Source: Candidatus Coatesiibacteriota bacterium (GTDB taxonomy: Bacteria > RBG-13-66-14 > B26-G2 > WVWN01 > G020348885). From it: DNA of 39,995 nucleotides. The stretch covers positions 1,855,886 to 1,895,880 of the forward strand of contig CP070755.1 of assembly GCA_020348885.1 (NCBI GenBank), given 5' to 3'. The position numbers and the translations under genes are program-made. A model generated the notes under the pieces. The model searched no databases and had not been told where the DNA came from. It worked only from the letters and a program-made list of their open reading frames with translations. Below are positions 9,947 to 39,506 of the stretch, piece after piece (the stretch's first letter is position 1; the number at the start of each line of letters is the position of its first letter).

Positions 9947-10633
9947 GTGAATACGAATGCTTTTTTAACCGTAACAGCGATTTCGGCGTCTCTGCTAGGA
10001 TTAATAGGCTGCGGCGGCCCCGCCGAGAAGTTCATCTGCGGGGATTGCGGCGCCGAGTTCGATAGCGAGGAGGAGTTGGACGCCCATATGAAAGAAACGC
10101 ATCCGCCGGAACCGCCCGACGAACCCGTAACACTATCCGACGAAGCGATGGAACTTCCGGCGGGTACAACGGTGGCCGTGTTGGAGTTGGAAAAAGGCGG
10201 CGTTATCGAATTCGAGTTGTTAACCGAGGAGACTCCCGAAACCGCCGGGAATTTCGTTACGTTGTGCGACGAAAAGTTTTACGATGGATTGGCGTTCCAC
10301 CGGGTGGTCAAAGGCTTCGTCATCCAGGCCGGCGACCCGACCTTCGTCGGCGGTGAACCTGTGGATGTGACGATTCCCGAGGAGCCGGACGCGCGTAAAT
10401 TCAAGCGCGGTGCGGTTTCGATGGCCCGAATGGCTACTGAGGACGAGTCGGGCAATACCGTCTACGGCGGGACCAGCGGCAACGAGTTCTTCATAACCAC
10501 GGGCGAAGCGTCCCATCTTGACCCGGACTTCTGCGTGTTCGGCTGGGTAATTACCGGTATGGACACGGCCGACATCGTAGCCCAGGGTACCATTATCAAG
10601 CGGATACGGGTCATCGAAGTACCGCCCGAGTAA
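9947..10633 (+). CDS. Cyclophilin-type peptidyl-prolyl isomerase, predicted lipoprotein with a C2H2 finger
   Basis: The protein should isomerise prolyl bonds outside the cytoplasm. It begins with a lipoprotein signal ending in lipobox LIGC (Cys22). Directly after this comes a classical C2H2 pattern, C31-x2-C34-x12-H47-x4-H52, then a Pro-rich linker, then a cyclophilin domain over about 72-228. Active-site segments are present: FHRVVKGFVIQAGD, GNEFFITTGEA and DFCVFGWVITGMD. A zinc finger on an exported lipoprotein is unusual. It is the first of three tandem cyclophilin paralogues and lies in the same gene run as lgt, which would lipidate it. Start is GTG with a perfect ribosome binding site. 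The isomerase family is secure; zinc binding is inferred from the pattern. Confidence 0.9.
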   Translation: MNTNAFLTVTAISASLLGLIGCGGPAEKFICGDCGAEFDSEEELDAHMKETHPPEPPDEPVTLSDEAMELPAGTTVAVLELEKGGVIEFELLTEETPETAGNFVTLCDEKFYDGLAFHRVVKGFVIQAGDPTFVGGEPVDVTIPEEPDARKFKRGAVSMARMATEDESGNTVYGGTSGNEFFITTGEASHLDPDFCVFGWVITGMDTADIVAQGTIIKRIRVIEVPPE

Positions 10634-10724
10634 CCCCCGTCCGATGAGTAGGAGGGAATACGTAATCGATATATCCTAACCGCGGTCCGGTTTACGGCCG
10701 GGCCATACCGAGGTGATTTCGTAA

Positions 10725-11300
10725 ATGAAACGGATTCTGATGGTAATTACGGTAGCCGCGATATTGCTGGCTTACGCCGCTTACGGCGCCGACACGCCCG
10801 AGCTTTCGGACGAGGCTTTGGCCCTTCCCGCCGGGACGCCCGTCGCTGTCTTTACGATGGCCGACGGCAAAACCTTTGAGATAGAGTTATTCCCGGACGA
10901 AGCGCCGGCGACTACCGGGAATTTCGTCGAACTGGTCAACGACGGCTACTACGACGGTATCGAGTTCCACCGGGTCGAGGGCTGGGTAGTTCAGGCCGGT
11001 GACGCACGCACCGCCGGGCGGGAGGAGTACGTCCACTACATTGAGCAGGAGTCGGGCGAACGCGGGTTCGGCCGGGGCGCGTTTTCGATGGCCCGGCTGG
11101 CCGCTCCAAAGGACGATGGTACTTACGAGTATAAAGAGACCAGCGGCACCCAATTCTTCGTGATAAAAGAGGGCGGCGAACACCTGAACGGTAACTTCTG
11201 TGTCTTCGGCTGGGTAATCGCCGGGATGGAGGATATCGATGCTCTGTCCAAGGGCGACACGATAGAGGAAGTAACGATCGTGGAGGTACCCGGAGAATAG
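10725..11300 (+). CDS. Secreted cyclophilin-type peptidyl-prolyl isomerase
   Basis: This 191-residue paralogue of the preceding gene has an N-terminal signal peptide of about 21 residues ending AAYGA and no lipobox Cys. The cyclophilin domain follows at once. The motifs FHRVEGWVVQAGD, GTQFFVIKEGG and NFCVFGWVIAGMED keep the Arg and hydrophobic residues of the active site. It shares with its neighbours a pre-domain stretch of the form LSDEALALPAGTPVAV. The ribosome binding site is GAGGTG. The next gene begins 2 nt after the stop, so the two are co-transcribed. It probably acts in the periplasm on unfolded envelope proteins. Confidence 0.9.
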   Translation: MKRILMVITVAAILLAYAAYGADTPELSDEALALPAGTPVAVFTMADGKTFEIELFPDEAPATTGNFVELVNDGYYDGIEFHRVEGWVVQAGDARTAGREEYVHYIEQESGERGFGRGAFSMARLAAPKDDGTYEYKETSGTQFFVIKEGGEHLNGNFCVFGWVIAGMEDIDALSKGDTIEEVTIVEVPGE

Positions 11301-11302
11301 TT

Positions 11303-11887
11303 ATGCGGCCCTACGCGGCGGCCCTGGCGACGGTTATGACGTTGGCGTCGGTATCGGCATCGGCGGTCGAAGCGCTTGAACCGATATACGTACTTAGCGC
11401 CGCAGCGTATAGACTTCCGCCGGGAACGCCGATAGCGGTCGTTGAACTGGCGGGCGGGTCCACCGTCGAGATCGTATTATTAGAAGACGAAGCGCCGCTC
11501 ACGGCGGCACACTTCGTGAACCTCGCGGAACGGCAGACCTACAACGGTACAGTATGGAACAGGGTGGTGCCCGGTTTTGTCGTACAGGGGGGCGCGCTGT
11601 CGGCGGTCGGTCGATTCGACGAAACGCCGGCCCCCGAACGCGAGATAAACGACGAGGTTTGTACGCGAGGCGCCGTCTTTTTAGCCCGAACGGTCATCCC
11701 CGAAGGAGCCGATGGTTATCGGTACGCCGAAACCCTGGGCGACCAGTTTTGCGTTCTTCTCAACGACGCCCTCTACTTAAACGACGACTTCACCGTCTTC
11801 GGCCGGGTCATTTCGGGGGTGGAACTTCTGGACGACGTGGAAGAGATGGAACCGATAACGAGTGTAAGAGTCGTACGAGTTCCTTAA
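11303..11887 (+). CDS. Secreted divergent cyclophilin-like protein
   Basis: The third tandem paralogue has 194 residues and a signal peptide of about 20-23 residues. The fold-defining segments remain (GTVWNRVVPGFVVQGG, GDQFCVLL, FTVFGRVISGVE). Two active-site positions are altered: the usual FHR is WNR and the second Phe of QFF is Cys. The catalytic Arg is kept, so activity may be reduced or specificity shifted rather than lost. The ribosome binding site GGAG lies across the stop of the preceding gene. The lgt gene starts 29 nt downstream. Confidence 0.85.
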   Translation: MRPYAAALATVMTLASVSASAVEALEPIYVLSAAAYRLPPGTPIAVVELAGGSTVEIVLLEDEAPLTAAHFVNLAERQTYNGTVWNRVVPGFVVQGGALSAVGRFDETPAPEREINDEVCTRGAVFLARTVIPEGADGYRYAETLGDQFCVLLNDALYLNDDFTVFGRVISGVELLDDVEEMEPITSVRVVRVP

Positions 11888-11916
11888 AAACGTTCGGCGG
11901 AAAGAGGACGTAGATA

Positions 11917-12672
11917 ATGCATCCTATTTTATTCGAGTTCGGCGGTCTTCGAATCGGCAGCTTCGGCGTAATGATGGTGATCGGTTTCGTAGTATGTTGG
12001 CTGCTATTCCGGTCGGAGTTGAAGCGGAAAAAGCTGAAGTTAATAGATACTGATATGCTGTTGGGCGCGATGGTCGGCGGCATCGTGGGCGCGAAAGCCT
12101 ATTACCTGATAGAACACTGGTCGGTGTTCGTCGCCGACCCGCTCGGCTCGATATTCAGCGCCGCCGGCCTGGTATGGTACGGCGGCGTCGCCGGTGGGTT
12201 GATCACGTGTATTATAATTATAATTATCCACCGGCAGCCCCTGCGGCCTTACGGCGACGCTGTGGCGCCGTCGCTGGCGATCGCCCTGGCGTTCGGCCGC
12301 ATCGGTTGACAGCTCGCCGGGGACGGAGACTACGGTCCCCCCACAGACTTGCCCTGGGGAATGTCGTATCCTAAAGGCGTCGTGCCGACGTTCGAGAACG
12401 TCCATCCCACGCCGATATACTCGGCGCTGCTTTTCTTCGGCTTGTTCCTCCTACTATGGTTCTTGCGAAAAAAAGAAGGGCCGGCCGTCGGGTGGCTATT
12501 CCTCGTATATGTAATAGGGACGGCCGTAATACGCTTTTTCCTCGAATACGTACGGACGACGCCGGAAGTTTTCCTCGGTTTTACGTTGACCCAACTAATA
12601 AGTATCGGGATGATACTGACCGGCGTTATCTGGCTAGCGAAGATGTTCTGGGCGAAGAGAAGGGCGGCGTAG
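11917..12672 (+). CDS. lgt: Prolipoprotein diacylglyceryl transferase with in-frame TGA, candidate selenoprotein
   Basis: Lgt moves diacylglycerol from phosphatidylglycerol to the lipobox Cys of prolipoproteins in the inner membrane. The frame starts at ATG 11917 (AAAGAGGAC before it) with HPILFEFGGLRIGSFGVMM and runs to FGRIG. It then meets TGA at 12307-12309 (codon 131), and continues in the same frame with QLAGDGDYGPPTDLPWGMSYP and the later membrane segments to TAG 12672. Read through, it is 251 residues, a normal Lgt length, with all motifs in order. Many Lgt proteins carry Cys at this exact position (GRIGC), so TGA most plausibly encodes selenocysteine. A stem-loop 9 nt downstream supports this. 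Alternatives are a one-base nonsense mutation or a sequencing error. Flanking genes use TGA as a normal stop. Confidence 0.85.
12319..12340 (+). promoter_or_regulatory. Candidate bacterial SECIS stem-loop in lgt
   Basis: GGGGAC (12319-12324) pairs perfectly with GTCCCC (12335-12340) around a 10-nt loop that begins GG. The loop starts 16 nt after the TGA at 12307-12309. Known bacterial SECIS hairpins lie immediately 3' of the UGA and have a G at the start of the apical loop, so spacing and loop fit. The hairpin is inside coding sequence that must also encode AGDGDYGPP, so chance pairing is not excluded. Confidence 0.6.
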
Positions 12673-37156: not shown

Positions 37157-37834
37157 TTACAGCGAAAAACCGAACTTAAACATTAGCCTGGTAGTAGAAA
37201 AACCGTATCCTGTGAGCCACGATTTTAGCCCTATCGAGAAGTCGCCGTGGAACTTGGGCCCTCCGATCTCGTTGCCGTGGCCAACCTCGAAAAAAGCGCC
37301 GCCGTATTGGCCGGGCGACCACGTACTGTAAAGTAGAGTATAACCTCCGTTAAAATAGAAGTAGTTCCCCAACGAAGCGCTCCTACTGTACACGTACCGA
37401 TTATGGACGTATATCGGGAAAGAATAGTGATCCCAATCGGTGTACCAGCTGTTCCCGAATCCCAGGGCGATAGCGTGCTTACCGGTTCGCCGGTACCCCA
37501 CGGCGAATTCGGCGCCGACCTCCAGGTTGCCCGACCCCAACCGGAGCCCCACGGCCGGCTGAAACGCGAACAGGAACTTCCTATATCCGTAATCCTCGTC
37601 TTCTGCCACCCGGAACTTCGGTTCTCTGGTTATCTTTTCGACCTCGTCAGCGTTTATAACCAGCACGTTCCCGCCGGCGATTTCTATTTTATACGTCTCG
37701 CCTTGGATCCTCTCTACTATCGTCCCCCGTATTACGCTGCCGTCCTGTAAGTAGATTACGTCTTCGTATTCTGTTGCCCCGGCGAAAGTGAAAAACGATG
37801 CTAAGGCCGTGGACGTTATAATGAGTGCCCTCAT
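37157..37834 (-). CDS. Secreted envelope protein, probable outer-membrane barrel, paralogue A
   Basis: This 225-residue protein has a signal peptide of about 20 residues ending FAGA. An N-terminal module follows (YEDVIYLQDGSVIRGTIVE, then GETYKIEIAGGNVLVI and EVEKITREP). The rest alternates aromatic and polar residues as in an outer-membrane beta-barrel, ending FKFGFSL. The same module occurs in the next two genes upstream on this strand. Function unknown. The ribosome binding site is AAAGGA. The gene lies 37 nt downstream of its paralogue and ends near the bidirectional terminator. Confidence 0.78.
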   Translation of the reverse strand: MRALIITSTALASFFTFAGATEYEDVIYLQDGSVIRGTIVERIQGETYKIEIAGGNVLVINADEVEKITREPKFRVAEDEDYGYRKFLFAFQPAVGLRLGSGNLEVGAEFAVGYRRTGKHAIALGFGNSWYTDWDHYSFPIYVHNRYVYSRSASLGNYFYFNGGYTLLYSTWSPGQYGGAFFEVGHGNEIGGPKFHGDFSIGLKSWLTGYGFSTTRLMFKFGFSL

Positions 37835-37871
37835 TACCGTATCCTTTCCGAATAACGCCGCATGAAGTGAA

Positions 37872-38579
37872 TTACATTAAAGCGCCTACCCGGACGTACA
37901 ACGCGCCGCCGGCCCGGTCCAGATGATGTTGCCGGCGATACCCCAGAGAAACGTAGCCGCGGAAACGGGGCGGTCCGAACTCCAACCCTTGGCCGGCGCC
38001 GTATGTAAAACCGCCGGACTCGCCTTGCGTCCCGCTCGCGTAAACAAACCCGTATCCGCCGTAAACGTCCGCAAAAAAGCCGAACGATCCTGCTCGCAAA
38101 TAAGTAAACCTGCCTCCGACGTAAACCGGAACGATATTGTAGGTTACACCCTCGTAAAAATAGCTTTCGTAAACCGCACGGTTGTAGCCGACGCCGGCGG
38201 TCGGCGCGAAAAACCTCGAAAGCCGCCAACAGACCAAAGCTTCGGCGCCGTAAAACCTCTCTCCGTAGTCGCCATATTTACCGAATACGAAACTTGCACC
38301 GAACGCGATCGTCCGGTATTCGTCCGCTGAACGACGGGTTTCCAGCCCGCCGATCGATTCGCGTTCGATTCGCGCCACGTCGTCGGCCTCGAAGATAATC
38401 ACGCTCCCGCCGGCTATCTCAATCTTGTACGTCTCGCCCGGAACCTCTTCGACGATGACGCCGCGGACGACAGAGCCGTTATTCAGGTAGATTACGTCCT
38501 CGTATTCGTTTTCAATCGCAAATACGGCCGCCGAGACGAGTACCGATATTAGAAACGGCGCCAAAACTTTCCCGCCCAT
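37872..38579 (-). CDS. Secreted envelope protein, probable outer-membrane barrel, paralogue B
   Basis: A 235-residue member of the same tandem family: signal peptide of about 21 residues (ending VFAIE region), module YEDVIYLNNGSVVRGVIVEE and GETYKIEIAGGSVIIFEADD, then a Tyr/Phe/Gly-rich barrel-like part (FGKYGDYGERFYGAEALVCW). It ends VGALM rather than in an aromatic residue. GGGAG precedes the ATG. It is spaced about 36 nt from both neighbours, consistent with one transcript. Confidence 0.78.
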   Translation of the reverse strand: MGGKVLAPFLISVLVSAAVFAIENEYEDVIYLNNGSVVRGVIVEEVPGETYKIEIAGGSVIIFEADDVARIERESIGGLETRRSADEYRTIAFGASFVFGKYGDYGERFYGAEALVCWRLSRFFAPTAGVGYNRAVYESYFYEGVTYNIVPVYVGGRFTYLRAGSFGFFADVYGGYGFVYASGTQGESGGFTYGAGQGLEFGPPRFRGYVSLGYRRQHHLDRAGGALYVRVGALM

Positions 38580-38615
38580 AATCTCCCTTTCGAGAGGGTT
38601 ACTGCTAATTGCGCG

Positions 38616-39356
38616 TTATACCGAAAAACCTACTCCGCCGAGGAACATCAGCATAGGTTCCGCTCCCCAATAATAGGTATCATAATGCTGAACGTAAAGC
38701 GTTGCCGATAAGTTCACGCGTATTTTACCGGGCCCCAGCTCCATCGCCTGACCGAAACCGTAAAGGAACCCGCCTTTTTGCCCGGGTTTTGACCCGCCGT
38801 ATACAAGCCCGTAGCCTACGTCGAACTCGCTGTGCATTTTCATCGAACCGCCGCGATAGAACGTGAACCTATTTTGGATGTGTATAGGTATGAAGCTATG
38901 CGCAAGGACGGACCGGTGGTCGCCGTCCTTTGGTTCGGTCCGAACGTACCCGACCGCCAGCGACGGCGTATATACGGCGTGGGCACGCAAACCGAACAGA
39001 AGCAAACCGCCGAATGGAATCAACGCTTCTTCGTTGATGTACGTGCTTCCTACTACTGCCCTGAAGCCGAAGGATAGACGGCTGGTTTCGGGCGGCGTTT
39101 CTTGACCCGGTCGCGACGGCGCCTTTCCTTCTTTCTCTAACCCCCGCGATATGTAATCTACCTCGGCGGCTTCGAAGACGAAGACGCTTCCGCCGGCTAT
39201 CTCTATCTTGTAAGTCTCACCCGGGACCTCGTCAACGATGATACCGCGGTAAACCGACCCGTCTTTCAGGAAAATTACATCCTCGGTCCCGCCGGCAAAC
39301 CCCGCGGCCGGCGTAAGCAATATTACCCCGAGAACCGCCGGAATTAAACTCTTCAT
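38616..39356 (-). CDS. Secreted envelope protein, probable outer-membrane barrel, paralogue C
   Basis: A 246-residue member, with signal peptide MKSLIPAVLGVILLTPAAGFA, the shared module (TEDVIFLKDGSVYRGIIVDE, then GETYKIEIAGGSVFVFEAAE), a linker rich in Pro/Glu (about residues 80-95), and a barrel-like C-terminal part ending GGVGFSV. The start is fixed at ATG 39356 by GGAGGTG upstream; a GTG at 39371 lies inside that ribosome binding site. A promoter-like TTGACC (39401-39396) lies upstream. It heads the three-gene minus-strand set. Confidence 0.8.
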   Translation of the reverse strand: MKSLIPAVLGVILLTPAAGFAGGTEDVIFLKDGSVYRGIIVDEVPGETYKIEIAGGSVFVFEAAEVDYISRGLEKEGKAPSRPGQETPPETSRLSFGFRAVVGSTYINEEALIPFGGLLLFGLRAHAVYTPSLAVGYVRTEPKDGDHRSVLAHSFIPIHIQNRFTFYRGGSMKMHSEFDVGYGLVYGGSKPGQKGGFLYGFGQAMELGPGKIRVNLSATLYVQHYDTYYWGAEPMLMFLGGVGFSV

Positions 39357-39506
39357 CCTATTCACCTCCACGAAAGTAATATATTAGTCGCCGCGGGTCA
39401 AGAGACGTTACGCTAGAAGAAAGGAAGTACTTATTGCGCCCCTGGATATATATTTCTATATCGGTTATATGTTGTTTGCAGATGCAGTGCCCTGTTGGCC
39501 GGTCCT

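Follow-up and report, generated by a model that had tools for sequence, protein, structure and literature searches.

Does an in-frame UGA inside a gene for a prolipoprotein diacylglyceryl transferase (Lgt) betray a broken gene, or is it read as selenocysteine (Sec)? The question is raised by a stretch of 39,995 nucleotides from a Candidatus Coatesiibacteriota bacterium (contig CP070755.1), hereafter the window, in which an lgt frame of 251 residues runs from 11917 to 12672 on the plus strand. Its lone internal stop is a TGA at codon 131 (12307-12309, plus strand), and its terminal stop is TAG. The probability that this lgt is a functional selenoprotein in which UGA 131 is decoded as Sec is put at roughly 95%, as judged from sequence comparison.

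Read through the TGA, the product matches the Pfam LGT family (PF01790) over 238 of 240 positions (1.6e-47, 162 bits for a gathering score of 24.9) and also aligns with E. coli Lgt (5AZB). The sequence is conserved on either side of the UGA, the signature motif reading GRIG-U-QLAGDGDYG. Thus, the full-length Lgt frame with a single TGA and intact motifs described in an earlier note made from the DNA letters is recovered here, and the source genome assembly carries the identical TGA at codon 131. The read-through product stays below the NCBIfam lgt equivalog TIGR00544 (91.4 bits for a cut-off of 118.9) and, because the subfamily is divergent, it is described as a member of the Lgt family and not as a certified equivalog. 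A plausible ribosome binding site, the purine-rich GGAAAGAGGA (11899-11908, plus strand), lies 5' of the ATG. An AlphaFold model of the protein, built on three sequences, reached a pLDDT of just 56.5 and was left out of geometry and fold searches.

Stop codon usage in the window speaks on two other ways of reading the UGA. The 34 main open reading frames end with TAA (22), TAG (6) or TGA (6), and lgt alone contains an internal stop. Since TGA terminates six other genes and lgt holds the sole internal stop, there is no global code change, in line with what had been expected from the letters. The UGA could also be a true stop separating the two halves of a split Lgt, as a TTG at 12349 opens an in-frame ORF of 107 amino acids. 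The chance of this is next to nil: the cut would break the signature motif where a transmembrane helix ends, and translation of the second part would have to begin at a rare start codon with no purine-rich site directly upstream. That part would also lack QLAGDGDYG, a segment invariant across the UGA genes, and the Cys-type relatives are fused. The weakness attributed to the two-protein reading by the earlier note, on account of the unaided TTG and the severed motif, is therefore upheld.

Decoding as Sec draws support from other genomes. Searching 41 genomes brought up three more Lgt genes interrupted by a single stop, TGA in each case (G001, G002 and G003). They belong to the same order as the window's genome, their products share 46-48% identity with that of the window's gene, and the TGA occupies the identical codon in the context GRAG-U-QLAGDGDYG. 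The codon is TGC in G004, a member of the genus of G001-G003, and TGT in G005, from the same class; Cys is aligned with U131 in all the nearest non-UGA homologues and in most of the panel. TGA, TGC and TGT are thus all found at codon 131 among related genomes, which confirms that the TGA sits where many Lgt proteins have Cys. Such a recurrence of TGA at one codon in three other genomes is beyond chance. When 84,980 species genomes were scanned at the DNA level for the UGA motif, with a pattern covering the GDGDYG type only, two members of the lineage (labelled Candidatus Zixiibacteriota) and one other match came up; given this limit on the pattern, Sec may also occur in other types of Lgt. The other match, L053 in a Hyphomicrobiales MAG, sits in an unrelated gene and was taken as chance.

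These comparisons also bear on whether the TGA reflects faulty sequencing or assembly, or else a nonsense mutation newly acquired by a gene that is dying. Loss of this copy could be tolerable because the genome encodes a second, full-length Lgt of Cys type (CCYG) with no internal stop (L002, G000:C1:2593904-2594686), on which the organism could rely. Against this, three other genomes have TGA at the identical codon, two independently named public MAGs among them, and coincident errors exactly at a Cys codon are not credible. Among the approximately 160 best matches listed from a search of 386 genomes, the internal stops are those four TGAs and no others. The scattered nonsense mutations in relatives that would point to decay were sought, and none was found elsewhere in lgt, either in the window's gene or in the matches listed. 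Comparison of the three closest UGA genes gives a dN/dS of 0.17-0.21 after the UGA and 0.28-0.32 before it, so that the portion 3' of the TGA is under purifying selection. Error or decay is hence refuted by conservation and is held to be very improbable.

Decoding as Sec requires a dedicated machinery, which the earlier note had proposed to look for as selA, selB, selC and selD. The window's genome (one scaffold of 2.6 Mb, rated 89.98% complete, with gaps including at least one run of 100 N) encodes SelA (410 bits), SelB (344 bits) and SelD (344 bits), all exceeding curated cut-offs. SelD itself has an in-frame TGA inside its classic CAGUASK motif (CAG-U-ASK). The search succeeded for these three proteins, and tRNA-Sec was not found in the gapped assembly with Rfam RF01852, a consensus pattern or a model built from 11 relatives. 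The best matches checked there are ordinary tRNAs, and an ARAGORN tRNA call near selA is located within queA and is spurious. A run of 100 N stands at L047:3576-3675 (G000:C1 near 139100), within 1 kb upstream of selA, and because of this position the simplest account is that selC is hidden in an assembly gap. In the relatives, SelA and SelB exceed the cut-off in 6 of 6 genomes tested. Across the phylum, 11 of 14 genomes carry a tRNA-Sec with anticodon UCA, among them the four other members of the order; those sharing the lgt UGA possess a canonical tRNA-Sec. The SelD gene (L049:1414-2478), with a strong hairpin after its UGA, is a second selenoprotein gene of the window's genome.

With the tRNA-Sec not found in this assembly and Cys being the aligned residue in relatives, it might be argued that the UGA is read as Cys, Trp or Gly through a code change or a special tRNA. 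This is highly unlikely in view of the six other genes of the window that UGA terminates, the retention of SelA, SelB and a UGA-containing SelD, and the canonical tRNA-Sec of the relatives that share the lgt UGA. Decoding by SelA, SelB, SelD and tRNA-Sec would instead place Sec at position 131.

Insertion of Sec at this codon would be directed by an in-frame bacterial SECIS hairpin. Within the coding sequence, a SECIS-like hairpin that the earlier note had not mentioned, GGGGAC(GGAGACUACG)GUCCCC, is located at 12319-12340 on the plus strand, starting 9 nt past the UGA, with a G opening the apical loop. All four UGA genes retain its form, which the closest Cys relative no longer has. Indeed, the 5' arm and loop in G001-G003 are those of the window's gene, apart from one silent change in G003. 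These three genes have a 7-bp stem (GGGGACG with CGUCCCC) with a 3' arm two bases further on, a shift due to the next residue being Val rather than Pro. In each of the four UGA genes, GGT precedes the UGA and the arm and loop are written with GGG-GAC-GGA, although GGA accounts for only 4-12% of Gly codons in their genomes; the nearest Cys homologues have GGC-GAC-GGC in place of GGG-GAC-GGA. In G004, the closest Cys relative, the comparable stem is reduced from 7 to 4 bp.

The folding energy of the window's hairpin is unremarkable in a GC-rich gene when set against shuffles (z 0.06). An equally good stem arises in 13% of synonymous recodings for the window's gene and in 3.5-5% for the three other UGA genes. 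In the published bSECIS model, the loop counts 3-9 nt and the spacing 16-37 nt (PMC13188914), so the lgt hairpin, with a 10-nt loop and a spacing of 15-16 nt, is at or just outside these limits. The case for a SECIS element is consequently one built on comparison between genomes and not on folding energy. Together with the UGA in four genomes, Cys in relatives and the presence of SelA, SelB and SelD, this hairpin supports the candidate selenocysteine Lgt that had been proposed.

No report of a Sec-containing Lgt was found in the open-access full text searched. It is likewise unmentioned in the selenoproteome inventories of 2022 and 2026 (PMC9312934, PMC13188914) and in the deep-Sep paper. Sec-Lgt counts as a new selenoprotein family insofar as an enzyme family already known occurs here in a variant form, produced by an established decoding mechanism.

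Two Lgt-family genes per genome are found in the window's genome and in its five closest relatives (G001-G005). As a second, Cys-type Lgt is encoded, the Sec form is a paralogue and not necessarily the sole Lgt of the cell. For G329, G294, G197, G308 and G169, the GDGDYG type is the only Lgt match among those listed; the subfamily must then be able to manage the housekeeping reaction in several genomes, which argues that it can carry out the normal Lgt reaction. In a maximum-likelihood tree, the G004 Cys gene is nested within the UGA genes from its genus (94/79), a placement suggesting that Sec has reverted to Cys in G004. The lgt of the window pairs with the G005 Cys gene (95/85), a grouping compatible either with one gain and two losses or with more than one gain. 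The codons shared around the UGA favour a common origin of the UGA genes.

Next to the lgt gene, three consecutive genes for cyclophilin-type peptidyl-prolyl isomerases (9947-11887) lie directly upstream, the first with a lipobox-like LIGC signal, and they possibly form an operon with lgt. No conserved lgt neighbourhood was found, as cyclophilin genes adjoin the window's lgt and other genes adjoin those of relatives. Tandem paralogous secreted proteins ending with GRVKALYY (L087:7258-13707, an array containing a run of masked or unknown bases) adjoin the Cys-type lgt of G004, and such an array is likewise found beside lgt in G002 and G003. Elsewhere in the window (37157-39371, minus strand), three tandem related genes share an N-terminal module (VIYLxDGSVIRG ... 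GETYKIEIAGG), and their products are probably secreted or located in the outer membrane.

What Sec could do in Lgt is approached by alignment with the E. coli enzyme, the residue spacing having been confirmed by eye. E. coli R143, R239, E243 and R246 are kept as R128, R206, E210 and R213, whereas N146, E151, Y26 and H103 correspond to U131, D136, F16 and Y88. N146 of the E. coli enzyme is part of a buried network of hydrogen bonds in which R143, R239 and other residues also take part (PMC4728403). It is essential, the N146A variant being inactive and also less stable, and Cys replaces it in distant Lgt homologues (PMC13251419). Sec131 would thus take the place of a Cys that itself occupies the position of an essential Asn, in the signature motif and close to the catalytic-pocket arginines R128 and R206.

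In Leptospira Lgt, a second Cys may pair with the Cys at the N146 position. No second Cys lies near U131 in the sequence of the window's Lgt, and in G228, G087, G197, G329 and G345 the matched region shows no Cys other than the one equivalent to U131, which makes an internal disulfide or selenenylsulfide unlikely. The likeliest role, advanced tentatively, is that of an active-site selenolate: ionised within the arginine network, it would assist diacylglyceryl transfer by positioning or activating the lipobox Cys and phosphatidylglycerol. With the same caution, Sec131 could be a catalytic residue taking a direct part in the reaction of a non-redox membrane lipid transferase. A redox-sensitive on/off switch acting through an external thiol would come next.

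Redox use of Sec, or a reaction not involving lipoproteins, would mean that the Sec-Lgt is not a standard diacylglyceryl transferase. The presence of a second Lgt in the genome and the redox nature of most catalogued selenoproteins lend themselves to this explanation, as do the changes of E. coli Y26 to F and H103 to Y in the window's Lgt, since Y26F abolishes the activity of the E. coli enzyme (PMC4728403). However, the signature motif and the equivalents of R143, R239, E243 and R246 are kept, other Lgts likewise carry Y, W or F in place of H103 (PMC13251419), and the GDGDYG type is the only Lgt match listed in the five genomes named above. A redox or otherwise non-standard function is therefore rather unlikely, and the active-site selenolate is kept as the preferred, if tentative, role.

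Lgt is an antibiotic target, and catalogued selenoproteins are nearly all redox enzymes. The mutational work on E. coli left the role of the N146 side chain undecided, as N146A is both inactive and less stable, and a natural Sec at this Asn/Cys site suggests a chemical role for the side chain there. If Sec131 is catalytic, lipoprotein anchoring would be selenium-dependent in this lineage, and the Cys or Asn at this site in ordinary Lgt would be catalytic rather than structural. The four genes with UGA, set beside the Cys form of a close relative, offer a natural comparison between Sec and Cys.

Three known systems stand close to this gene. With E. coli Lgt (PF01790; PDB 5AZB/5AZC), it shares full-length homology, seven predicted transmembrane helices, the signature motif and the four R143, R239, E243 and R246 equivalents, but differs by Sec at N146, the GDGDYG-type motif, F for Y26 and Y for H103. 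The Cys-type GDGDYG Lgts (for example those of G004, G005, G228 and G197) have the subfamily, the motif and the codon position in common with it, several with a single Cys, whereas their codon is TGC or TGT instead of TGA and the closest of them (G004) lacks a matching SECIS stem. Like bacterial selenoprotein families such as SelD, FdhA and PrdB, it combines an in-frame UGA at a Cys site, a downstream hairpin with a G in the loop and genomic selA, selB and selD; unlike them, the predicted Sec-Lgt is an integral membrane lipid transferase with no redox fold or thioredoxin-like motif.
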